From Scatophagus argus (Eukaryota; Chordata; Actinopteri; Scatophagidae): 64,000 nt of DNA. Shown in pieces: positions 12,974-48,700 of this stretch. The position numbers and the translations under genes were made by a program. The notes under the pieces are model-generated. The model had not been told where the DNA came from, did no database searches, and saw nothing but the letters and a program-made list of their open reading frames with translations. Every line of letters starts with the position of its first letter. The stretch's first letter is position 1. The stretch spans positions 12,374,501 through 12,438,500 of the forward strand of contig NC_058498.1 in the NCBI RefSeq assembly GCF_020382885.2, in the 5' to 3' direction.

Positions 12974-13204
12974 AAATCAATCAATTCAAATCAGAAATCA
13001 ATGTGTGTTGGGTTGTAGTCCATTTCACAGGTCAGCCACACACACATCTTTGTTTTCTGTTGGGGATGCAACTTCACCAGTCAAAGTTCACCAAATCTCA
13101 ACACCACGTGAGGCCAAGATGCAAATTTCCTTCCCAAATGTTTTTCTTGTTGTTTGTTTGTTTTTTACCACATTGTTTTGAAGTCTGTGTATCTCTACTA
13201 ATGG

Positions 13205-13395
13205 CCTGAGGATGATCTATCTCCTGTAGAAAAAATGGGTGAGTTTGATGAGCTCCACCACCAGCAGTGCAGTGTAGATCATCATCTGAGGTTTGCACCA
13301 CTGAACTTTGTTTGTGCATGGAAGGTGATGACTCCAGAATGGCAGGCTTTGTGGGACAAGTGAAGATCACAGGTGTGGGAGTTGCAGGAATTGTT
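13205..13395 (-). pseudogene. degenerate C-terminal remnant of LRR copy A
   Basis: Downstream of the copy A stop, the minus strand still reads VIFTCPT and further broken pieces. These include a frame-shifted counterpart of copy B's juxtamembrane and membrane segment (SSVVQTSDDDLHCTAGGG aligns at DNA level with codons for QLCKTQMMIYTALLVVE). The Thr-rich stalk is missing entirely: the sequence jumps from PPFTTT to a stop and then to the pre-membrane block. This shows that copy A descends from a full membrane-anchored gene and lost its 3' part by an internal deletion plus frame-disrupting changes. Confidence 0.8.
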
Positions 13396-14727
13396 TTAGG
13401 ATAAAACTGTGGTTGTGAAGGGAGGGGTTGGGCAAATAAGTTGGTCCTCTGTTAATGATCGGATTTCCTGGCCTTTTAGATTTTCCGGATACTCACAGAC
13501 CACAGACGACAAAATCTTGCCAGAGTTTGCTTTCATCCACAGGTGAAGATATATCAGATTGCAGTCACAGTCCCAGGGGTTATCATTGAGGTAAAGTTTA
13601 GTGAGTTTTGTTAAAGGCTGAAAAATATCCCAAGGAAGCACCCGGAGGCCATTGTTAGCTAGCTTGAGTGTGGTCAGTGACTGTAGCTTTTCAAACACAT
13701 CTGCATCCAGTGAATTTATCTTGTTGCTCTGTAGATTCAGCTCTGTGAGCTTCTCAAGGCCTTCAAAGAACTCAGCATGCAAGGTGAAAAAGTGATTTTT
13801 AGACAGATCTAGCTTCTTGAGCTTCTTCAGTGGGTTGAATATTCCTTTAGGAAGAGCACTGAGGTTGTTTTGACTGAGGCTTAACTCAGTCAATTTAGGC
13901 ATTTCTCCAAAGAGCACTGGTGGTAGACTAGTTAATTTGTTATTCTGTAGGGTCAGTGATTTAAGCTGAGGAAAGCCGACAAAAAATTCTTGAGGTAAAC
14001 CAGTCAGAAGATTACTGTCCAGATATAGTTTAGATAGTTTGTCTTTATGTGGAAATAGATTAGGTGATAATTCTGCTATTTTGTTTCCTTGCAAAGCAAT
14101 TTCCTTCAAGTCAGGAAAATTTTGAAAAATTTCTTCAGGAATGGTGGTCAGCTGATTCTCGTAAAGTCGCAGTATCTGCAGTTTGTTTAGGTTCGAGAAC
14201 CAGCTGGAGGATACAGAGGAGAGATTGTTTCTAGCTAAATGGAGGAGTGAAAGGTTCTCAAGATCATCAAAGGTCCCATCTTCAATCGATTCAATCTCGT
14301 TCCCATGTAACTGGAGCTCTTTTACCTTTTTAAGGCCTTCGAATAAGCCTTCTTCTAGACCACGGAGCTTGTTAGACTTAAGTATAATAACCTGCAGGTT
14401 GCTGAGGTTTTTAAAGACTCCCACTGGGATTGATGATAATGGAGTGTTGGAGATCTCAATTTGAATGAGGTCCACCAAACCTTCAAAAGCTCCCGGCTCA
14501 ATAGATGTTGTATTAGTGTTCATGAATTCCACCTTGTTAAGTTGTGGGTTTTCAGCAAAAGCTGCTTTTGGAATTGTTTTAATCTGGCTACTCAGAAAGA
14601 AAACCTGTGTCACACCTGGTGTAAAGACACGGGGTATTTCTGTTGTGGCTGCACTGAAAACATCTTTCAAGCAGTCTGTCTCCTCAAACAGCAAAGACAG
14701 AAAAAGAAAAATGAGTCCTCTTGACAT
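13396..14727 (-). CDS. CPN2-like LRR protein, truncated copy A
   Basis: 443 aa. The N-terminus (MSRGLIFLFLSLLFE) looks like a signal peptide; about 14 leucine-rich repeats follow, then a C-terminal LRR cap (NPWDCDCNLIYLHLWM, with Cys also in VVCEYPE and QLICP). The LRR pattern and the cap match CPN2, whose cap also carries NPW-CDC, a KGQ and a QL-CP. Compared with copy B, 33 bases are deleted just after the signal peptide, removing one N-cap Cys, and the whole mucin stalk and membrane segment are gone. The frame ends TTTVLS-stop where the stalk begins in copy B. The acceptor TTATAG ends just upstream of 14736, and a 5' UTR exon lies at 14937-15000. If expressed it would be a secreted LRR protein; it may equally be a pseudogene in decay. 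The LRR frame itself is intact and about 1% different from copy B. Confidence 0.75.
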   Translation of the reverse strand: MSRGLIFLFLSLLFEETDCLKDVFSAATTEIPRVFTPGVTQVFFLSSQIKTIPKAAFAENPQLNKVEFMNTNTTSIEPGAFEGLVDLIQIEISNTPLSSIPVGVFKNLSNLQVIILKSNKLRGLEEGLFEGLKKVKELQLHGNEIESIEDGTFDDLENLSLLHLARNNLSSVSSSWFSNLNKLQILRLYENQLTTIPEEIFQNFPDLKEIALQGNKIAELSPNLFPHKDKLSKLYLDSNLLTGLPQEFFVGFPQLKSLTLQNNKLTSLPPVLFGEMPKLTELSLSQNNLSALPKGIFNPLKKLKKLDLSKNHFFTLHAEFFEGLEKLTELNLQSNKINSLDADVFEKLQSLTTLKLANNGLRVLPWDIFQPLTKLTKLYLNDNPWDCDCNLIYLHLWMKANSGKILSSVVCEYPENLKGQEIRSLTEDQLICPTPPFTTTVLS

Positions 14728-18700: not shown

Positions 18701-21343
18701 TTAAAGTCTGTGAGTCTCTGCCTCTAGTAGAGGCTGGAGGATGACCTCTCTCCTGTAAGAGAAATGGGTAAGTTTGACCCTATGGTATATCTTCTCTCTG
18801 TGCTGCAGCAAGTGGTAAAGAGACAGGGTGAACTTAGCCAGCGCCAGTGTACATGTGATCTCCACGACCAGCAATGCAGTATAGATCATCATCTGAGTTT
18901 TGCACAGCTGAACTTTGTTTCTGCACGGACACAGAAGGGAAGGCGATGACTGCTGAACGGCAGTGTGGATCTGTGGAGCTGTGGGGCAAGTGAAGATCAC
19001 TGGAGTGATTTGTGGAGAAGATGATGTTCTTTGGGTGGTGGCTGGTTGGATAGTTCTGAGAGTCGTGGTTATGGGCCTGACTGTTGTAGGTATAGTTGTG
19101 GTGGTTCTAAGTGCAGATGTTGTCATAGCGGTGGTGGCTGGTGTTGTTGTTGTTGTTAAAGTGGTGGTTGGTGCAGTTGTTGCAATAGTGGTGGTTGGCA
19201 CAGTCGTTGTTAAAGTGGTGGTCGGTGGTGTTGTTGTTAAAGTGGTGGTTGGTGCAATTGTTGTCATAGTGGTGGTTGGCACAGTCGTTATTAAAGTGGT
19301 GGTCGGTGGTGTTGTTGTTAGAGTGGTGGTTGGCACAGTCGTTGTTAAAGTGGTGGTCGGTGGTGTTGTTGTTAAAGTGGTGGTTGGTGCAGTTGTTGTC
19401 ATTAAAGTGGTGGTTGGCACAGTCGTTGTTAAAGTGGTGGTCGGTGGTGTTGTTGTTAAAGTGGTGGTTGGTGCAGTTGTTGTCATTAAAGTGGTGGTTG
19501 GCACAGTTGTTGTTAAAGTGGTGGTCGGTGATGTTGTTGTTAAAGTGGTGGTTGGTGCAGTTGTTGTCATAGTGGTGGTTGGCACAGTTGTTGTTAAAGT
19601 GGTGGTTGGTGCAGTTGTTATCATAGTGGTGGTTGGTGAAGTCGTTGTCATTAAAGTGGTGGTTGGTGAAGTTGTTGTCAAAGTGGTGGTTGTTGGTGTT
19701 GGTGCAGTTGTTGTTAAAGTGGTGGTTGGTGCAGCTGTTGTTATAGTGGTTGTTGGTATTGTCATTGTGGTTGTGGCAAGTGCTGTGGTGGAGACAGTAG
19801 TGGTTGTTCGAGTTGTAGCCAACAAAGTGATTGTTGGTGTTGTGGTACTAGGCTCTGTGGTTGGACGAGCAGTGGTGGGTGTGGTGGTTGGAACAGTGGT
19901 GGTTTGTGTTGTAGTGGTGAGCATGATAGTGGTTGGTTCTGTAGTCGGAAGTGTTGTGGTAGTTGTGGAAGTTATGGTAGAGGTCAGAAGAGTAGTTGTG
20001 AAGGGAGGGGTTGGACAAATAAGTTGGTCCTCTGTCAATGATCGGATTTCCTGGCCTTTTAGATTTTCCGGATACTCACAGACCACAGACGACAAAATCT
20101 TGCCAGAGTTTGCTTTCATCCACAGGTGAAGATATATCAGATTGCAGTCACAGTCCCAGGGGTTATCATTGAGGTAAAGTTTAGTGAGTTTTGTTAAAGG
20201 CTGAAAAATATCCTGAGGAAGCCCCCGGAGGCCATTGTGAGCTAGCTTGAGTGTGGTCAGTGACTGTAGCTTTTCAAACACATCTGCATCCAGTGAATTT
20301 ATCTTGTTGCTCTGTAGATTCAGCTCTGTGAGCTTCTCAAGGCCTTCAAAGAACTCAGCATGCAAGGTGAAAAAGTGATTTTTAGACAGATCTAGCTTCT
20401 TGAGCTTCTTCAGTGGGTTGAATATTCCTTTAGGAAGAGCACTGAGGTTGTTTTGACTGAGGCTTAACTCAGTCAATTTAGGCATTTCTCCAAAGAGCAC
20501 TGGTGGTAGACTAGTTAATTTGTTATTCTGTAGGGTCAGTGATTTAAGCTGAGGAAAGCCGACAAAAAATTCTTGAGGTAAACCAGTCAGAAGATTACTG
20601 TCCAGATATAGTTTAAATAGTTTGTCTTTATGTGGAAATAGATTAGGTGATAATTCTGCTATTTTGTTTCCTTGCAAAGCAATTTCCTTCAAGTTAGGAA
20701 AATTTTGAAAAATTTCTTCAGGAATGGTGGTCAGCTGATTCTCGTAAAGTCGCAGTGTCTGCAGTTTGTTTAGGTTCGAGAACCAGCTGGAGGATACAGA
20801 GGAGAGATTGTTTCTAGCTAAATGGAGGAGTGAAAGGTTCTCAAGATCATCAAAGGTCCCATCTTCAATCGATTCAATCTCGTTCCCATGTAACTGGAGC
20901 TCTTTTACTTTTTTAAGGCCTTCGAATAAGCCTTCTTCTAGACCACGGAGCTTGTTAGACTTAAGTATAATAACCTGCAGGTTGCTGAGGTTTTTAAAGA
21001 CTCCCACTGGGATTGATGATAATGGAGTGTTGGAGATCTCAATTTGAATGAGGTCCACCAAACCTTCAAAAGCTCCCGGCTCAATAGATGTTGTATTAGT
21101 GTTCATGAATTCCACCTTCTTAAGTTGTGGGTTTTCAGCAAAGGCTGCTTTTGGAATTGTTTTAATCTGGCTACTCAGAAAGTAAACCTGTGTCACACCT
21201 GGTCTCAAGACACGGGGTATTTCTGTTACGGTTCCACTGAAAACATCTTTCAAGCAGTCTGTCTCCTTTAGACATTGTTGGTCTTGAGTCAGTGAAGTCT
21301 CAAACAGCAAAGACAGAAAAAGAAAACTGAGTCCTCTCGACAT
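18701..21343 (-). CDS. CPN2-like LRR receptor with mucin stalk (copy B)
   Basis: 880 aa, probably a cell-surface mucin-type LRR protein. In order: signal peptide (about 1-20); N-cap with Cys24 and Cys30; about 14 LRRs (51-393); C-cap 394-443 starting NPWDCDC; a Thr/Pro stalk (about 447-780) built from TTTLTTTxPTTT-like units; Cys786, Cys805, Cys807 and Cys814 before a hydrophobic segment (about 817-846); and a basic tail to 880. The LRR domain matches CPN2 best (an 'AF..NP.L.KV.F.NT' stretch and the C-cap), but CPN2 is a soluble plasma subunit with no stalk or anchor. The layout instead recalls GPIb-alpha: LRR, mucin, juxtamembrane Cys, membrane. The predicted membrane helix carries Glu and Lys, as some assembling receptors do. 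The single coding exon is preceded by a short intron and a 5' UTR exon. It is a tandem paralogue of the 13.4 kb copy. The ligand is unknown. Confidence 0.85.
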   Translation of the reverse strand: MSRGLSFLFLSLLFETSLTQDQQCLKETDCLKDVFSGTVTEIPRVLRPGVTQVYFLSSQIKTIPKAAFAENPQLKKVEFMNTNTTSIEPGAFEGLVDLIQIEISNTPLSSIPVGVFKNLSNLQVIILKSNKLRGLEEGLFEGLKKVKELQLHGNEIESIEDGTFDDLENLSLLHLARNNLSSVSSSWFSNLNKLQTLRLYENQLTTIPEEIFQNFPNLKEIALQGNKIAELSPNLFPHKDKLFKLYLDSNLLTGLPQEFFVGFPQLKSLTLQNNKLTSLPPVLFGEMPKLTELSLSQNNLSALPKGIFNPLKKLKKLDLSKNHFFTLHAEFFEGLEKLTELNLQSNKINSLDADVFEKLQSLTTLKLAHNGLRGLPQDIFQPLTKLTKLYLNDNPWDCDCNLIYLHLWMKANSGKILSSVVCEYPENLKGQEIRSLTEDQLICPTPPFTTTLLTSTITSTTTTTLPTTEPTTIMLTTTTQTTTVPTTTPTTARPTTEPSTTTPTITLLATTRTTTTVSTTALATTTMTIPTTTITTAAPTTTLTTTAPTPTTTTLTTTSPTTTLMTTTSPTTTMITTAPTTTLTTTVPTTTMTTTAPTTTLTTTSPTTTLTTTVPTTTLMTTTAPTTTLTTTPPTTTLTTTVPTTTLMTTTAPTTTLTTTPPTTTLTTTVPTTTLTTTPPTTTLITTVPTTTMTTIAPTTTLTTTPPTTTLTTTVPTTTIATTAPTTTLTTTTTPATTAMTTSALRTTTTIPTTVRPITTTLRTIQPATTQRTSSSPQITPVIFTCPTAPQIHTAVQQSSPSLLCPCRNKVQLCKTQMMIYTALLVVEITCTLALAKFTLSLYHLLQHREKIYHRVKLTHFSYRREVILQPLLEAETHRL
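19080..19990 (-). repeat. coding minisatellite, Thr/Pro mucin stalk
   Basis: Tandem degenerate repeats within copy B. The basic unit is about 24-27 bases and encodes PTTTLTTT-type octa/nonapeptides with one variable residue (A, V, P or S before PTTT). Longer blocks containing TTTLMTTT recur and give a higher-order pattern. It provides dozens of potential O-glycosylation sites. The repeat makes the opposite strand open for 388 codons of Val/Gly-rich nonsense. Confidence 0.95.
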
Positions 21344-21528
21344 GTTTTTTCACTATAAAAAGAAAAAGAAATATATAGAAGATATCATTTCAAATAGCAA
21401 ATACAGTTTAAAAGGTATATGACTTTTTGCCTTTCTGGTGATAATATATGAGTGCTCACATATCAATAGCATCATACAAAGTTTTGCTATGTCAACTTAT
21501 CCTAAGAGATAAGAGATCATTTGCTTAC

Positions 21529-21600
21529 CTTGTTATTTCCTGTCCCAGGATGAAGCCGGTTGCTACAACAGTGAGGAGACACGAATAAGCTCAGTTGGTT
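21529..21600 (-). other. 5' UTR exon of copy B (approximate 5' end)
   Basis: The donor AATAACAAG followed by GTAAGC is shared with copy A. The acceptor TTTTATAG lies just upstream of the ATG at 21343, giving an intron of about 175 bases. The transcription start is estimated. Confidence 0.6.
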
Positions 21601-21604
21601 ATCT
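21599..21604 (-). promoter_or_regulatory. GATA-type motif upstream of copy B
   Basis: AGATAA in ATAAGATAACC, at the same offset from exon 1 as in copy A. A second AGATAA on the plus strand lies at 21690-21695. Both motifs survive in flanks that have otherwise drifted. Confidence 0.4.
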
Positions 21605-21749
21605 TATGTATCAGTGTAGGCCAGCAGCCAGCACCCCTCAAGTGTGTTGCATCACATGTGAGGGGGGTGTAACACACGTCTGCAGCCTGAGATAAGAGCA
21701 AGGATGGAAAGCTTTCAGTGTTGCTACTGGATGGGTATGTTATATTCTT

Positions 21750-23245: not shown

Positions 23246-24958
23246 CTACAGCACGGAATTCTTATTTCTGTGGCCTATGTTTCCTCTGCCTCTCTTTTTC
23301 CTCCTCCAGCAAATACAGCATATGATGACAGTGCTGATGAAGACAGTGGACACCACTGCAATGATGATGAGAATGATCGAAGTGTCATGAGAAAACATTT
23401 CCTTCTCCCTTTGTCCACCACTGGTGACTTCCTCATACTCTGAGGTGGAGGTGGTCTTGACAGCAGGTGAGGAAGTGCTTTGTCTGGTTGAAGGAGTATT
23501 GGGTTTTCTCCTCTTCTCCGTTGAGGTCAATACAGGCTCCTTGGTAGAGCTGAGAGGAATCAAGTTCTCATCTGTCAGCAGAGCAATTACCTCACCATTC
23601 AGACTGAAGGGTGTTTCACAGACCAAAAGAGTTTGATTAGCCTTAGATGGGTGCTGTCGCAACCACTCTCTAAGTGGCAGAATGTCTTTATCACATCTCC
23701 AGGGGTTCTGCTGCAGGAGTACTTCTGTTGCTACAGTGAGGGCATCTAGACTCTTCTGTGACAGGTTGGGAAGAGAGTTATTTCGCAGGTCTATCTGTCC
23801 CAGGTGGCTCACGCCCTGGAGAAAACCCAAAGGGAGGGAGCTGATGGAGTTGTGCTCCAAGGAAATGTTGACCAGATTGGGCAGACCTTGGAAAGTCCCA
23901 GCTTGTAGCGTTGTGAGTAGATTGGTGTGAAGTGATACCTCTCCCAGCTGCACTAACCCTCTAAATGCCATGGGTGATACATAGCTGATCTGGTTGCGAC
24001 TGAGCACCAAGAGACGCAGCTGAGTAAGGTTCTTGAATGTATCATCCTCAACACGGGTCAGTCTATTGTCATACAGCCACAAGTCCTGCAGAGCCATGGG
24101 CCCAAACAGCCCTGGTTCCAGAGTATCCAGCTGGTTTTTATACAGAGAGAGTTGGGAAAGGAGGGGGAGGTTTAAGAAGAGCCCTTGTGGAAGAGATGTT
24201 ATCCTGTTGTTGGAAAGGAACAACTTCTGGAGTTTCACAGTTTTGGAGAACAGGTCATGGTGGAGATGAATGATTCGATTGTCATGAAGGGACAGTTCCT
24301 CCAGGTTTACAAGGTCATCAAAACTGCCAATGGGGAGTTCCTGTAGTGAGTTTTTGTTAAGCCGTAAGATTTTCAGCTTAGAGAGACCCTTGAATGTCTC
24401 TTTAGATAGTTGACTGATATTGTTTGCAGAAAGAAAAAGGTACTGAAGCTCAACAACAGGGTGAAAAGTTTCCACAGGTACAAAAGTGAAAAGGTTCATG
24501 CTGAGGTCAAGAAGTTTCAGATCTTTCAACCCGGAAAACCAATTAGGGCGGAGCACCAGGAGTTTGTTGCTCTTCAGATTCAGAGACTCCAGCTTCTGAA
24601 GATTTTGAAACAAAGTCTCAGGGAGATCTTGCAGTTCATTGCCTGTAAGCCCTAAGGCACCTATATTTGTAGTGGAATCAAATGTGCCAAGACGCACTTC
24701 TCTCAAAACAGTGTCTTTAATCACAAAGATTCCCAGGGCATTAGAGAAATTAGTCAGGTCCTCTGGTTTTAGAAAGTGTATACTGCAATTGGAGAAGTAA
24801 AGGGCGGTAGTAGATGAGGGCACAGCTGTGGGGAAGTCTGAGAGGCCACTGCAGAGGATCTTGGTTCCTTGACATTTGCATCCATCTGGACACGCCCAAA
24901 CCACAGCGGTGAGGGAACAGAGAAGTAGGAGCACATGAAGGGTCAGGCACAGATCCAT
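23246..24958 (-). CDS. leucine-rich repeat-containing protein 15
   Basis: 570 aa type I membrane protein. Signal peptide (1-22) ends before CPDGCKC, the N-terminal LRR cap. About 15 LRRs (50-417) follow, then a C-cap starting NPWRCDKDILPLREWL (418-470), which matches the human LRRC15 cap closely. A Ser/Thr/Pro stalk, one membrane helix (about 527-550, ILIIIAVVSTVFISTVII) and a short basic tail (WRRKKRGRG) complete it. Length is close to human LRRC15 (581 aa). LRRC15 is a cell-surface LRR protein of mesenchymal cells. The frame is open further upstream to 25009, but an acceptor (TTCTAG) ends just before 24966, so the ATG at 24958 at the head of the signal peptide is preferred. A 5' UTR exon with a good donor lies near 26634. 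It sits between the CPN2-like pair and gp5 on the same strand. Confidence 0.9.
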   Translation of the reverse strand: MDLCLTLHVLLLLCSLTAVVWACPDGCKCQGTKILCSGLSDFPTAVPSSTTALYFSNCSIHFLKPEDLTNFSNALGIFVIKDTVLREVRLGTFDSTTNIGALGLTGNELQDLPETLFQNLQKLESLNLKSNKLLVLRPNWFSGLKDLKLLDLSMNLFTFVPVETFHPVVELQYLFLSANNISQLSKETFKGLSKLKILRLNKNSLQELPIGSFDDLVNLEELSLHDNRIIHLHHDLFSKTVKLQKLFLSNNRITSLPQGLFLNLPLLSQLSLYKNQLDTLEPGLFGPMALQDLWLYDNRLTRVEDDTFKNLTQLRLLVLSRNQISYVSPMAFRGLVQLGEVSLHTNLLTTLQAGTFQGLPNLVNISLEHNSISSLPLGFLQGVSHLGQIDLRNNSLPNLSQKSLDALTVATEVLLQQNPWRCDKDILPLREWLRQHPSKANQTLLVCETPFSLNGEVIALLTDENLIPLSSTKEPVLTSTEKRRKPNTPSTRQSTSSPAVKTTSTSEYEEVTSGGQREKEMFSHDTSIILIIIAVVSTVFISTVIICCICWRRKKRGRGNIGHRNKNSVL

Positions 24959-24966
24959 TATTTCCC

Positions 24967-26633
24967 CTAGAACAGTAGAAACATCTATGTTACAGTGAAG
25001 GTTGGTCATGAATCTTGTTTCAGATTTACATGGATTTGTGAAGAGGTCATGGTCATTACATACTTTATACTCTTAAAGGGACAATGTTACATGTCAGTCA
25101 TTTTACAAAAAAATTGAAATTGTTGACTGTGTACATACAATAATAGGGTCTGCTCTTGCACATGATGTACAATAGTTTAATGTACAATAGTTGTTTGCTT
25201 CCAGACCAGTAAAAGAAGAGTCTGTAGTCTGTTTTTTTTCCTTTCATTGAGAGAACAGCCACAGAGGGGATTCTCTGCACTTAAACTTTTACCATAACAG
25301 GGCAGTTATATTGAGGACAACTGTAATTATTAACAGCCGCTGCATGTTGCAGCTTCAGCATTCTTGTAACCAAAAAGGATACATCTGCATAAATTTATCC
25401 AGTGATGTATTGACTGGTGTACCAGCATGCTTGCCTTTTAAGAAAAAACAAACTCTTAACTCTTAAAGACTGTGAGAAAAAGGAATGTTTTCATACATGT
25501 TACTGTGCCATGTTAAACATATGCTTTCTTCTGTATTCTTTATTCCTAACTCTCCCAGTATTCCTACTTCATCAGCACTCCTTACTTTACTACTAACACT
25601 ACTTTATTTCACTTTACTACTATCACTAACTCTCTCCATTAGTAATATTAGATTTAACTTTCCTTTTTGTTTTGTTGTTGTTACATCATTATCACCACTT
25701 CCCCTTTCTTGACTGCTGTGAATGTGAACATTTAACATCAGTTCACATTTAAGTAAAATATGTGTTTCTAGTTGCATATCCATAAAAAAAATAAAGTTCA
25801 GATATCTACTGAGACGTGCATCTGCAGTTGACATGAGCAGTTTTAGTAGACATATGACACATTCAAAGAGCACTGCCTCTTAACACAAAATTATTTGTCA
25901 AGAGGCACATTGTGCAACCTATGTGCCTTTTGTAACTCCTCATGAAGCCAATGATGTTCCTGTTTTTGCAAGATCTGACAGCTAAACCATGTTTCCTCTG
26001 TGGTGTATATTAGAACAACCCAATCCAACCAAAAACCACTGTCTGCTCTTGCCTGGGACAGCCTGGATTTCTGCAGTACAGTGTAATGGCTAAGGCATTT
26101 CCAGTTCACCATTAATTGCTTTGATTTTTCTTTCCCCTTGCCATAGCTGGAGGATCAGCACTTTTTCTGTTATGAAAAGACTGAACAAACAAAGTGGGGA
26201 ACTGTACTGCAAGACACCAGGAGTCGAGCCACAGAAGTTATCTGAAGTTTTATATTAAAGGTTTTTGGTGACCACTCTCTGATATAGTGTTAAGACAAGC
26301 TATCAAAAATAAACCACATTTTCTGACAGAAAAATGTACTTATTCCCAAAACCCTGTGTAAGTCAGTATCCTATAGACAGTATTGTAGATGGATACACAT
26401 ATTAAACAAAATCAAGGACTGATTTAGGTATAGAGAGTTGTATTTTTAAGATAACACTTATTGCTGTTATAACTTGATCATAATCCTTACCTACCTACTT
26501 ACCTTATCTATTTTTGATTCATTTAAGATTTATGCCTGGATAACTGGATAACTGGTTTATTTCACTATGAAATCTTCCAGTCAAACTATCCTTGACAAGT
26601 ATGTTACAAGTAATTAGAATTAAACATTCTTAC
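24967..26633 (-). other. 5' intron of lrrc15
   Basis: The minus-strand donor ACAGG-GTAAGA at 26634/26633 and the acceptor TTCTAG-GGGAAATA at 24967/24966 define an intron of about 1.67 kb. It holds no recognisable gene or repeat. Confidence 0.6.
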
Positions 26634-30874: not shown

Positions 30875-33143
30875 TTACCCTGGAATATGTGCACACTCAG
30901 CCTCTAGCTCATTCGTGATCTTCGTGAGGCGATACATTTGATACATGGCAGCAAGAATGAGGAACAAGCCTGTGGTCACAAGAAGAATGTGACAAAACAT
31001 GAGGAACCCGACCAAGGCCGTATTCGAGGGAAGAACCCATACATAGATCCAGCCCTTGTGAAAGCTGTGGTGCACAAACTCGGGTCCCTGTTCAACCACC
31101 AATTTATCATAGAAAGGAACTGACATGTCAGCTGGTAGAGATGAAGTCTGAGTGTTGAGAATAAGCTCCTTGTTATGTAAGCTGGCTCTCTGGGTTTGGA
31201 GAGATGTTGATGGGATTGTGGTATGTAAGACAGATGGTTTCATAGTTGGAATGATGACTTGTTGGGTATCTGCTTGAGTAATGGCTGATGTTGTTGTGGG
31301 TGGTGCGCTTGTTGAAGCAAAGGGTGTTTGTCCACTGGTTAAAATGGAGTGGGATGGTTTTGTTGGCTTATGCAAGCCAGTTTGCATAGGAAAAAGATTT
31401 GCAGCATCGCAAGAGCTGAACTCCTCATCAGACAGAGAGCCAACGGTACGAAGCATTTGGTACATTGGACTATGACACATCACATCATCCCTGTCAAGGA
31501 CCACATGCTCATTATGCTTTATCCATTTTGCAATATGTCTAATACTGCATGTACAGTCCCACGGGTTACCACTCAGAGTAAGGGAACTTAAATTTGAATT
31601 TGACAAGAAAATATCTCCTGGGAGAGTCTTGAGGTTGTTATTCTTCAAGTCAATTGACCGAACCTTTCTTAGGTTCTGAAAGATATTTTCTGGTAGGCTT
31701 TGCAGCTTATTGTCATTAAGGACCAGCATACCCAGTGTAGTTAGTCTGTAAAACAGTTGAGGATGTAAATAAACAAGATTGTTAGATTTCAGTGAGAGCT
31801 TGTTAAGGTTGGGAAGGCAGCAGAAGAGATCTGAAGGCAACTCATGAAGCCAATCATTTAAGTGGAAATTAAGGGTCAGCAATCCAGACATGTTTGCAAA
31901 CAAATTTCCAGGAACAGTGGTGAGGTTAGTGGAATACAAGTAAAATTCTCTCATGTCAGGCATGTAACCCATTAGCTGGTCTGGCAGAGACAATAGTGGG
32001 TTGTTGTAGAGCGTAAGCTTTTTCAGCATGGGCATGTTATAGAAACTCTTTTCGGGGATTGCCTCAAGTTGGTTGGAGGACAAGGTGAGGATCATAAGGT
32101 TCCTCAGAGGCAAGAACACCTGAGGAGGAATGCTGGTAATCTGGTTGTGATGTAGTTTCAGCTCCTCAAGGTTGACAAGTCCATCAAAGATTCCAGCTTC
32201 TAGCACCTGTAGGTCATTATTATAGATCACAAGCTCTTGAAGTTCAGTCAAGGACTGAAAGATGGTAGGCGGAAGCCTCTTTATGAAGTTCCTGCCAAGG
32301 TTCAGAAAGTGGAGTTTGCTCAGTCCATCAAAAACTGTTGAAGAAAGATTTTGCAGTTTGTTCTTGCTCAGATCCAGATCCCTCAACCCAACAAGTCCTT
32401 CGAGCATATCCGGAGCTATGGTCTCCAATTGGTTCCCATCTAAATGCAGCTGTTCCAGTGTGGTCAGTGAACTGAAAACCCCAGGGGGAAGGCTAGAGAG
32501 ATCATTGGATGACAGCTTGACAGACTTGAGCTGCGGAGCAATGTGAAAGGCCCTGGGATGGATAGAGTGTAGATGGCTGCGAGTCAGACTGAAACGCAGC
32601 AGGAGGTCCTTGTTCGCCAAGCTCTGCTCATTTATGACGGTCATGTTTGTGCCATCAAGTTGCAGCATGTATGTGTGGCCAGGCAGCTGCTTTGGTATAT
32701 CTGTGATGGTCGCGCCAACACACTTCACAGCACCTTTAAAATTACACAGGCAGCTGCTGGGGCAGGACATGCTGCAGGTGGGGTGTGGCAGTAGGAAGAG
32801 AATGAGCATCATCCACAAGGTGCCTGCAGTTGAAATAAATATCCATTTTTACACATGAGATTAAATATTTCTCATTAATATCACCCAAAAAGCAATTTAT
32901 AGTAATGATATTTCACTGTTTATTCCAAAAGGCCAACGTTTTTATACTCAGATTTTATCAAAGCATTTAATGCTCATCTAGAATTTACTTTAGGAAATAC
33001 TGTAGTTCTCAAACAATAACAAAGTAGAAACATTTAAGATTTTTTTTTCTCTTAAAGAACACTTGAAAGACTAAATCTGACTTGTAAAAAGCAACAACCA
33101 AAACAAGTCAAATTTTCTACCAACCTCTGTTGTTAGAATCCAT
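30875..33143 (-). CDS. platelet glycoprotein V, two coding exons
   Basis: Membrane LRR protein; in mammals GP5 belongs to the GPIb-IX-V von Willebrand factor receptor of platelets. Exon 1 codes 33125-33143 (MDSNNR plus one base; donor AGAG-GTTGG) and exon 2 codes 30875-32823 (acceptor CTGCAG). Joined length is 655 aa. A signal peptide (MMLILFLLPHPTCS core) leads to the N-cap CPSSCLC, then LRRs to about 425, a C-cap starting NPWDCTCSIRHIAKWI, a Ser/Thr stalk, a membrane helix (about 609-634) and a short tail. GP5-specific support: an irregular LRR pair reading STNLTTVPGNLFANMS then FHLNDWLHELPSDLF aligns with the unusual human GP5 repeat at the same place. It is longer than human GP5 (560 aa), mainly through the stalk. 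A later in-frame ATG at 32812 would also leave a signal peptide. Confidence 0.87.
32824..33124 (-). other. intron 1 of gp5
   Basis: Phase-1 intron of 301 bases between donor AACAGAG-GTTGGT and acceptor AACTGCAG-GCACC. No feature inside. Confidence 0.7.
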
Positions 33144-45700: not shown

Positions 45701-48700
45701 GAAACGGCATGTTGATCTGTAGGTATCTCTTCCACACAAGCAGTCACACACACGCACTTTACATGTTTTATACACGTGTCTATCAGAACAACATCACCCC
45801 CAGTGCTTTTTTATGTCTACTTCCCTTGATTTCTTTACCATTTTAGGAATAAAGGGAATATAGAACGTAACCTGTACTGTACTATAATAGCTATAGCACC
45901 CTCCTGTTGCTATTCTAGAACACAACATCACCTTCATGACTCAGGAGTCTATTGGATCAGTCAAACTAGCATTCTACTAGTTGGGGAACATTTACCAGGT
46001 TACTATGCAGAGAATCTGAGAGTAGAAGTTGAGAATAGACATTTCACAAGACATTTCACAAGAACACAACAGTAGCGTGAGTGAGAGGAGAAGGGCGAAG
46101 CTGGAGTGCAGGAAATCTGTGTAAGCAGCAAGATATCTGAGTGAAATGCCTGAGCAGAAGCAGAGCAAATCTAAGTGCAAGCAGGGGCTATTTGAGTGCG
46201 AGGGCAGGGTTTTGAGGGAAAGCATTACAAAGTCTGAACATGAAATAAATGAGTCATCCTCTCGGATTGAAAGACCTCGCTTGAATAAAGATGAGGAAGA
46301 AGCTCCATACCCACTGGCCCCTGAACACCTCAACGAGTCAACAGAATAGCTTGCACTAACGTGTGTCGATAGCATCTGTTTTAGATTAGTGTAATTACCT
46401 TATACCTAAGATTTGTCCTTCACCAGTGAGGTGATCCAGCAGTCAACCCACAGACAACTGATCTAATTTATCGTTCAGTGTAGCTTTTAATGTTGTGAAT
46501 TAGTAGGTCAGGCCTTGTTTTCATAACCAGAAATAAGCTTGTAAACGATTCTTCATTCAGTTCATGCTAGAGAGCAATGAATGTGAAGGTTTGGCTTTCT
46601 TGACTAAGTAGTAAAACATGTTTTTTTGATTCCCGAAGGGGGGAGGATTGCTTAGTCCTACAGTCAGTGTAATATCTAATTGATTTTATATTTATGCGCT
46701 CAGTTTGTGATACAGAGCAGCTTTTGCAGTGTGGAGAAGGTTTGTGCTAGTAAAGGCAAGATTTAAATTCATCCACCTTTTTTGAAAAAGACCAGAATAT
46801 GAACCTTCTCAACAGTTTGATATGTCATCTTCACTATCTGCAGCTGCTACTGGCATCATAGACATGTAGGTGAAAACACAAACAGACCCTTCACAGTTCT
46901 TGTGGTCTGTTTGTGGTATCTCCATAGTTTGATGCATAATTATATTTTTTAAGGAGTTTGGGTTGACTGCAGCTGCATATCAAAAGCTATGCAGCTTACA
47001 GTGAAGGCTCCCAAACATAGCTGTTCTGTTGACTCTGCTTCGCTTCATACCAGGAGCTGCAACAGAAGCCCACCCCTCTTCCCTCTGCAGTTTTTCTTCA
47101 AGTAAAATTGCTCACTCACAGCTTAGTGAGATCACTGTTTCAAACCCACACAGTCATAGAAAACTCCAGTAGTAAGATCGTACCCCCAGGGAGAGACCAG
47201 ATGCTCCACCATCTATGCAGGCAGACCATTGCCTCTTCTCATGCTGGGAGCTCACGCTGCCATCCACCCTGACCTTGCCGAAGTCACTGCACATACACCC
47301 ACTCTCAGATATCTAATTAAACATACACACATACACATCCAGGAGAATGCACCACTTGTTTCTTAGTACATATGGGTGAGGGTGCTACAGTCTGTTTTAT
47401 TTGTCAACTTAAGTCTGCCTGAGCTGTCAGATGCTCAGGTCAATTACAGGTGCAGCGCAGTGTAGTTAAGCTGCTGATGTGCCTTTTTAAGTAAAGTGTG
47501 ACACTCATGTTTGTCTACACACAAACAGAGAAATAATCTTTGCATAACAGCCCTCCAGGCAGATGGTGTTGTTGTCAAAATCACGTCGTTTAAAGATGTG
47601 GGTGAGCCAAAGCAAGCTGTTGAGATCAACATCACAACAGGCAAGATATTCGTGCTCCTGCTTGAAGTGTTAAATTAGGACTTCACTGCTGATTGTGTTT
47701 CTCTGGTGACAATATGATTATACCAACTGTTGCGCAGCTCTTGGTTTGTTTATTTGTAACATTTTCATGATTTATAATTGGGAAGTTTGGCAGTATTGGG
47801 GCGTTGACTTTTCTGTGAAAGTCTGTCTGCTTCATTTTCCTTGAAAGACTTAAGTCTGCTATGTTAATCCATTCTGGATGGAGACTGTATCATCATACTC
47901 CTCCTTAGTTGTACAGTATATTTCATGTATGTTTCCTATCCCTCATTCATGTTTAATGTTCTCCAAACCCCTCCCCATATACACACAAACACACATCAAC
48001 CGACGGGGACCTCAGTGAGCGCCAAGATAATGAGATCGCCCAGGAGATTCAGGATCAGCTGGTTCGACAGGCTGAGCAACAGCGACAGCAAGAAGAGAAG
48101 GATGCAGTAAGAAACACACACACTCACACATTTCTGCCTATTCAAGCACAATGCTAGTTACATCCGCCCATCACTGATTTGACTTCTGGTATTGATGTAT
48201 TGTAATGGGTGGGTCATTCCACTTGAATCACCACCTTTTTTGTGCCTCCTCATTGTAATAATGGAGTAACTGCCGTAATGACCTAACCTGTATTTTTCTC
48301 TCGATCATGATCACATTGTTTATGCTCTACAGGAGTAGAGATTCAAATATATTCTGATGGCACAGTATCAGGGTGTTTTTGTAAAAGTTTTTCCCATGAT
48401 ATTGCTGATAATAATTTCAGGTGATTAGCGTTTTCCTGGATCAGTTTTGGTCCATCTACCAGCTACCCAGTGTTTACACAAATCGCCCTAAATGGTAAAT
48501 TGCCAGTAAATCTTTCAAAATATCCCATTTGCCATTATTTCTTGCCTCTTAACTTGAGGGAGTCACTGGTCTCTTTGCTCCGGAGTTGTGTGATGGTATG
48601 CAGTAATTGGCCTGAATGAGAGCACCACACACTTAACTTAAAACATGAGGGAAAGATGTATCTCACCACTATAATCTAATATGTTTGCATGTTTTCTGCT

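Follow-up and report, generated by a model that had tools for sequence, protein, structure and literature searches.

We consider it reasonably probable that the gene described here, hereafter gene A, is a paralogue of the CPN2 family which encodes a type I membrane mucin with the layout of GPIb-alpha, is not the orthologue of GPIb-alpha, and would act as a tethered receptor, most likely on the thrombocyte. It lies on the minus strand of a 64,000-nucleotide stretch of DNA (the window), which corresponds to C6:12374501-12438500 in a 570.7-Mb genome.

Reading frame and domain layout of gene A

The frame of gene A is intact, with 880 codons uninterrupted from the ATG, and its parts are as follows (the basis of each assignment in brackets):

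18701..21343, minus strand: gene A, 880-aa coding frame starting at ATG (open reading frame list)
21287..21343, minus strand: signal peptide, aa 1-19 (judged by eye)
20165..21223, minus strand: LRR block, aa 41-393, span 353 (Pfam and motif span)
20015..20164, minus strand: LRR C-cap, aa 394-443 (Pfam, below cut-off, and residue reading)
19001..20002, minus strand: Thr/Pro stalk, aa 448-781 (tandem repeats and composition)
18893..19000, minus strand: juxtamembrane region with Cys 786, 805, 807 and 814 (residue reading)
18836..18892, minus strand: hydrophobic stretch, aa 818-836, containing Glu828 and taken as a putative membrane helix (hydropathy)
18704..18835, minus strand: 44-aa tail, aa 837-880 (residue reading)

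Pfam reported LRR_8 (many LRRs) at an E value of 1.3e-72, with LRRCT falling under its cut-off. The original prediction of LRRs followed by about 330 residues of Thr/Pro mucin, four Cys and a membrane segment was borne out, the frame being exactly 18701-21343 and the stalk about 334 residues long. Inspection by eye places a polypyrimidine-AG acceptor immediately 5' of the ATG, with a GTAAGC donor some 185 bp 5' of that codon; the coding region may plausibly form one exon, preceded by an intron in the 5'UTR.

Repeat units of 27, 54 and 84 bp, each a multiple of three, follow one another in tandem in the stalk, and of the 343 residues from 448 to 790, Thr accounts for 197 and Pro for 42. At an unselected lag of nine codons the stalk showed 107, 81 and 160 differences at codon positions 1, 2 and 3, respectively; the third-position excess in the stalk repeats was dropped as evidence, since the repeat units had been chosen by their amino acids. 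On the plus strand, opposite the stalk, a Val-rich open frame of 388 aa was also observed (18963-20129 of the window), which most likely just mirrors the stalk repeats.

Genomic neighbourhood

Gene A shares its strand with a tandem copy, gene B, which the original prediction had overlooked, and with two further LRR genes:

13396..14727, minus strand: gene B, tandem copy of gene A, 443-aa frame without stalk or anchor (open reading frame list)
13173..13377, minus strand: gene B vestige of the juxtamembrane, helix and tail part, frameshifted and partly deleted (comparison with gene A; found again by genome search)
23246..25009, minus strand: LRRC15-like neighbour with a strong anchor (open reading frame list, LRR comparison, helix sum)
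30875..32818, minus strand: GP5-like neighbour with an anchor (open reading frame list, LRR comparison, helix sum)

Located, as had been predicted, in the CPN2/LRRC15/GP5 cluster, gene A adjoins the LRRC15-like and GP5-like genes, and the order on this strand is GP5-LRRC15-A/B, which we take to agree with the order at human 3q29. Cpn2, Gp5 and Lrrc15 have been described as a sub-cluster of extracellular LRR proteins, arranged in tandem in both the human and the mouse genome (PMC2235866). A probable ccdc50 exon was also noticed on the plus strand (47957-48154 of the window and nearby), where one of the five pieces scanned matched CCDC50_N at E 0.0007, under the curated cut-off.

Family assignment

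Gene A most likely belongs to the CPN2 family, as a gene distinct from soluble CPN2. Measured from the N-cap motif to the C-cap motif, its LRR span is 353 residues, the same as in human CPN2 (our own copy of the sequence, CPN2 being absent from the PDB sequences) and in a related gene on C13 described below. The span is 377 in both the LRRC15-like gene of the window and human LRRC15 (9oib), 378 in the GP5-like gene of the window, 379 in human GP5 (likewise our own copy) and 181 in human GPIb-alpha, so that the LRR block of gene A has one repeat fewer than those of LRRC15 and GP5. In blastp, gene A scored 258 bits with CPN2, 253 with LRRC15, 223 with the GP5-like and 204 with the LRRC15-like gene of the window, 186 with GP5 and 90 with GPIb-alpha; its identity was 36% to human CPN2, 34% to human LRRC15 and 29% to GP5. 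Residues of gene A matched by just one of these three human proteins numbered 36 for CPN2, 35 for LRRC15 and 22 for GP5, and phmmer against solved structures returned human LRRC15 as the best relative among the best 60 of 314. The CPN2-like character claimed earlier for the LRRs was thus upheld, CPN2 being the best, narrowly, of the human proteins compared and equal in LRR span; by sequence alone CPN2 and LRRC15 are hardly separable for gene A, and it is the LRR length that separates them.

Human CPN2 also shares the cluster position of gene A, but continues past the C-cap with roughly 100 residues peculiar to it and has neither stalk nor anchor, the reverse of what is found in gene A; the C-terminus of CPN2 proper is seen instead in the C13 gene. 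Human LRRC15, nearly as close as CPN2, and its counterpart in the window have the cluster, the LRR family and a single anchor in common with gene A, but carry one LRR more and a strong anchor, and the window gene lacks a long Thr stalk. GP5 (platelet glycoprotein V) resembles gene A in its cluster, in combining LRRs with an anchor and in the polar residue of its helix, and differs by one additional LRR, the want of a long Thr stalk and the low identity.

The phylogeny of LRR domains which the original prediction had proposed was indecisive once GP1BA was included. Without GP1BA, gene A joined human CPN2 (81/84); with GP1BA, human CPN2 joined GP1BA (89/94) on a very long branch and gene A was left unplaced, its pairing with CPN2 (p 0.10), GP1BA (p 0.109) or GP5 (p 0.136) being in no case rejected. 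When the C13 gene was included, gene A fell outside the pair formed by the C13 gene and human CPN2 (92/91) and was joined to it at 82/89; the LRRC15 pair received 83/85 and the GP5 pair 56/33, no branch was starred and the branches were long. Three alternative placements again escaped rejection, namely gene A paired solely with the C13 gene (p 0.086), paired solely with human CPN2 (p 0.091), and joined to the LRRC15 pair (p 0.166); by path length in this tree the row nearest to gene A was human LRRC15, not CPN2. This tree places gene A beside the CPN2 pair with moderate support, which is not decisive.

Origin of gene A

The DNA of the LRR block matched two places in the genome, namely genes A and B. 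Its protein matched 31 places at E 1e-20 or better, ranked as gene A, gene B, C13:15693398-15694627 (192.7 bits, 34%) and the LRRC15-like gene of the window (154 bits). The C13 gene (L010) has an open reading frame of 524 aa with the LRR span of 353, no stalk or anchor, and a C-terminus which aligns with our copy of human CPN2; in these features it resembles the usual soluble CPN2. When its 60-kb surroundings were searched by tblastn, a human query of our own found hes1, and the LRRC15-like and GP5-like queries matched nothing but the CPN2-type gene. Three exon-like pieces near the C13 gene were scanned, one of which was a cation-transport (P-type) ATPase, presumably of the ATP13A kind from its look by eye. 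We take hes1 and a P-type ATPase to be human 3q29 neighbours of CPN2, so that an ancestral 3q29 block may survive as two halves, one on C6 and one on C13. Since the same genome holds this separate gene of soluble type, gene A would be an additional paralogue, and the earlier suggestion of a membrane form kept by fish is, if read as replacing soluble CPN2, not supported, the C13 gene having the features of soluble CPN2.

Gene A may be a teleost duplicate of CPN2 from the whole-genome duplication, in which the C-terminus was swapped for a stalk and an anchor, the C13 gene having stayed soluble; we regard this as a serious possibility, short of probable. The place of gene A at the CPN2 position of the C6 cluster, together with CPN2, hes1 and a P-type ATPase on C13, speaks for such a history, as does the unrejected pairing of gene A with the C13 gene alone, whereas in the best tree human CPN2 is the partner of the C13 gene and gene A branches outside the two. 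That same tree, and the membrane anchors of both cluster neighbours, favour instead an old membrane sister of CPN2 which predates the fish/tetrapod split and was lost in mammals, and from some such form soluble CPN2 may derive. We entertain this second history just as tentatively: the tree support is moderate and its branches long, the search was confined to this one vertebrate genome, and the anchor of gene A showed no convincing similarity to the GP5 or LRRC15 anchors in a shuffle test of low power. Because both cluster neighbours carry membrane anchors, gene A bears on the origin of soluble CPN2.

Putative membrane anchor

Taken as a GPIb-alpha-type transmembrane helix, residues 818-836 have a mean Kyte-Doolittle value of 1.97 over 19 residues, the top value in the whole protein, with Glu828 at the centre and a Lys just past the segment. 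When the best 19-mer was summed on a Hessa-type scale, gene A gave +0.9 against -4.1 for the LRRC15-like and -2.1 for the GP5-like neighbour; the human anchors, from our own copies of the sequences, gave -2.6 (GP5) and -3.9 (GP1BA). What stood of the membrane helix proposed earlier is a single hydrophobic segment before the 44-aa tail, but the anchor is weaker than had been described. It is plausible that the helix requires a partner chain. A segment which does not cross the membrane would make gene A a secreted LRR mucin, with which the positive Hessa sum, the central Glu828 and the Lys right after the segment are in keeping; we think this unlikely in view of the hydropathy, the position of this lone segment near the C-terminus, the Cys before it and the basic tail after it. 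Gene A is, on these features, probably membrane-bound.

The local scores of the gene A anchor were equalled by 25.5% (human GP5), 4.5% (GP5-like gene of the window), 0.8% (human GP1BA) and 57% (LRRC15-like gene of the window) of shuffles; these percentages are uncorrected, concern hydrophobic sequence and have low power, the comparison of the window GP5-like gene with human GP5, an expected match, giving 26%. Homology of the anchor to those of GP5, LRRC15 and GP1BA was dropped, the shuffle test being weak and the full-tail alignment with GP1BA covering 19 residues. A genome search with the anchor returned, beyond gene A and the gene B remnant, only matches at E 0.26 and 0.64.

Gene A and GPIb-alpha

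The GPIb-alpha-like layout noted in the original prediction was recovered: as in GPIb-alpha (human ectodomain 1gwb), an LRR head is followed by a Thr/Pro stalk, Cys close to the membrane, a single putative helix and a short tail. GPIb-alpha differs in having half the LRR length of gene A and a stronger helix and in matching it weakly, and we take its genomic place to be another one. That gene A is not simply gp1ba, as the original prediction implied, is very probable from its LRR span, its place in the cluster and its rank in the search given below.

The human GPIb-alpha query, our own copy of the sequence and identical to 1gwb over 266 residues, matched 61 places in the genome at E 1e-8 or better (best candidates scored), six of them within the window, in its four LRR genes, with gene A at row 9. 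The best match was L007, one of two LRR genes which lie as a tandem pair on C19 (L007 and L011, 7.089-7.092 Mb) and which, by eye, we take to be LRG1-like. Among 25 of the 61 loci screened by script, with the proteins of 11 read, none was clearly gp1ba; the names LRG1, LRRTM, OMG and TPBG used for the screened loci are our own assignments by eye. One candidate, L008 (C4:7978916-7979530), was rejected, its best solved relatives being FLRT, with GPIb-alpha not among the best 60 of 252. L008 encodes an LRR protein of 470 aa which carries a strong helix towards its end and has a GPIb-like layout, and the genes adjoining it presumably correspond to SART3 and FICD, which they resemble by eye. A search for the gp1ba neighbourhood with our own copy of SLC25A11 gave four carrier matches at 34-45% and did not locate it.

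That gene A is the fish gp1ba, an orthologue of GPIb-alpha which gained LRRs and moved, is highly improbable: the identical order of head, stalk, Cys, helix and tail, the unrejected pairing with GP1BA on the tree and the screen described above, in which no other clear gp1ba turned up, are consistent with it, but the LRR span is 353 against 181, GPIb-alpha is the weakest human match of gene A (90 bits), gene A comes only ninth in the GPIb-alpha search, GPIb-alpha is absent from the best 60 of its 314 solved relatives by phmmer, and the gene sits in the GP5/LRRC15 cluster.

Control region

21344..21743, minus strand: 400 bp before the gene A ATG, with four GATA-type sites, CACCC, an ETS-type motif and a possible 5'UTR intron (motif count, splice sites by eye)

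Four GATA-type sites were counted in the 400 bp 5' of the ATG of gene A and likewise of gene B, none before the LRRC15-like gene and one before the GP5-like gene; the mean over the window is 1.0 per 400 bp, and 2.4% of 400-bp segments reach four. Four or more GATA-type sites jointly with CACCC and ETS occurred in 13 of 3180 overlapping 400-bp segments, all at the starts of genes A and B, a motif set which was picked after looking and which, the two genes being copies, gives one lead and not two. Combinations of GATA, CACCC and ETS are typical of megakaryocyte and erythroid genes. The GP5-like gene, which is expected in thrombocytes, is without this combination.

Proposed role

The sequence itself shows the architecture, LRR length, neighbours, C13 gene and tandem copy. 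The working mode that we propose for gene A, which is likened to that of GPIb-alpha, goes further and presumes insertion into the membrane, glycosylation, a partner, a cell type and a ligand. The stalk of about 334 residues would be O-glycosylated and would raise the LRR head, the juxtamembrane Cys could bond a partner chain, and the weak acidic helix would probably be in need of one. The tethered LRR head would be kept at a good distance from the membrane of a blood cell, for which the thrombocyte is the likeliest candidate, and may serve there as an adhesion or sensing receptor.

A bolder proposal, which we rate as doubtful, is that fish thrombocytes use gene A instead of GPIb-alpha, pairing it with GPIb-beta via the Cys and the acidic helix and capturing cells in flow, with gene B as a soluble head; if so, the GPIb-alpha layout would have arisen on two occasions, each time from another LRR gene. 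A possible partner exists in fish, since zebrafish thrombocytes express gp1bb, the GPIb-beta gene (PMC4742565), and GP5 was measured in blood cells of rock bream (PMC7084886). One survey gives, for GPIb-alpha, coverage of under half of the protein in all compared vertebrates except placental mammals (PMC4486697), and a cod study employs GP1BA as a thrombocyte marker, the available part of which does not state the gene behind the name (PMC7588623). Fish thrombocytes may or may not have a true GPIb-alpha, and a stalked, probably anchored CPN2 relative beside GP5 is a testable candidate. Among the open-literature matches listed (titles and abstract starts), no fish CPN2 in membrane-bound form or in thrombocytes was described, nor was any membrane-anchored relative of CPN2. 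Genes of this type may already be annotated as CPN2-like.

Tandem copy and probable gene conversion

In comparison with gene A, gene B has an 11-codon deletion near the N-terminus, which takes one Cys with it, and its frame stops just past the C-cap, with the stalk deleted and the anchor remnant broken downstream. The two genes differ at 8 of 1080 bases over codons 76-435 and at 11 of 192 over codons 1-75. Outside the coding region, 37 of 477 positions differ in the 5' flank and 67 of 445 farther upstream, the flanks thus diverging by 8-15% while the LRR blocks are nearly the same. Flanks that differ to this extent argue that gene B is not an assembly echo of gene A. Over codons 81-380 we counted one synonymous difference in 205 sites and seven non-synonymous differences in 695, and the contrast between the silent LRR sites (1/205) and the non-coding 5' flank (37/477) gave a Fisher p of 2.9e-5. 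Since the low divergence reaches silent sites, recent gene conversion is indicated rather than selection alone, and it is most likely this process, which explains the pattern and is not directly seen, that has kept the LRR blocks of the two genes near-identical. The product of gene B may be a secreted protein that consists of the LRR part only, or the gene may be in decay.
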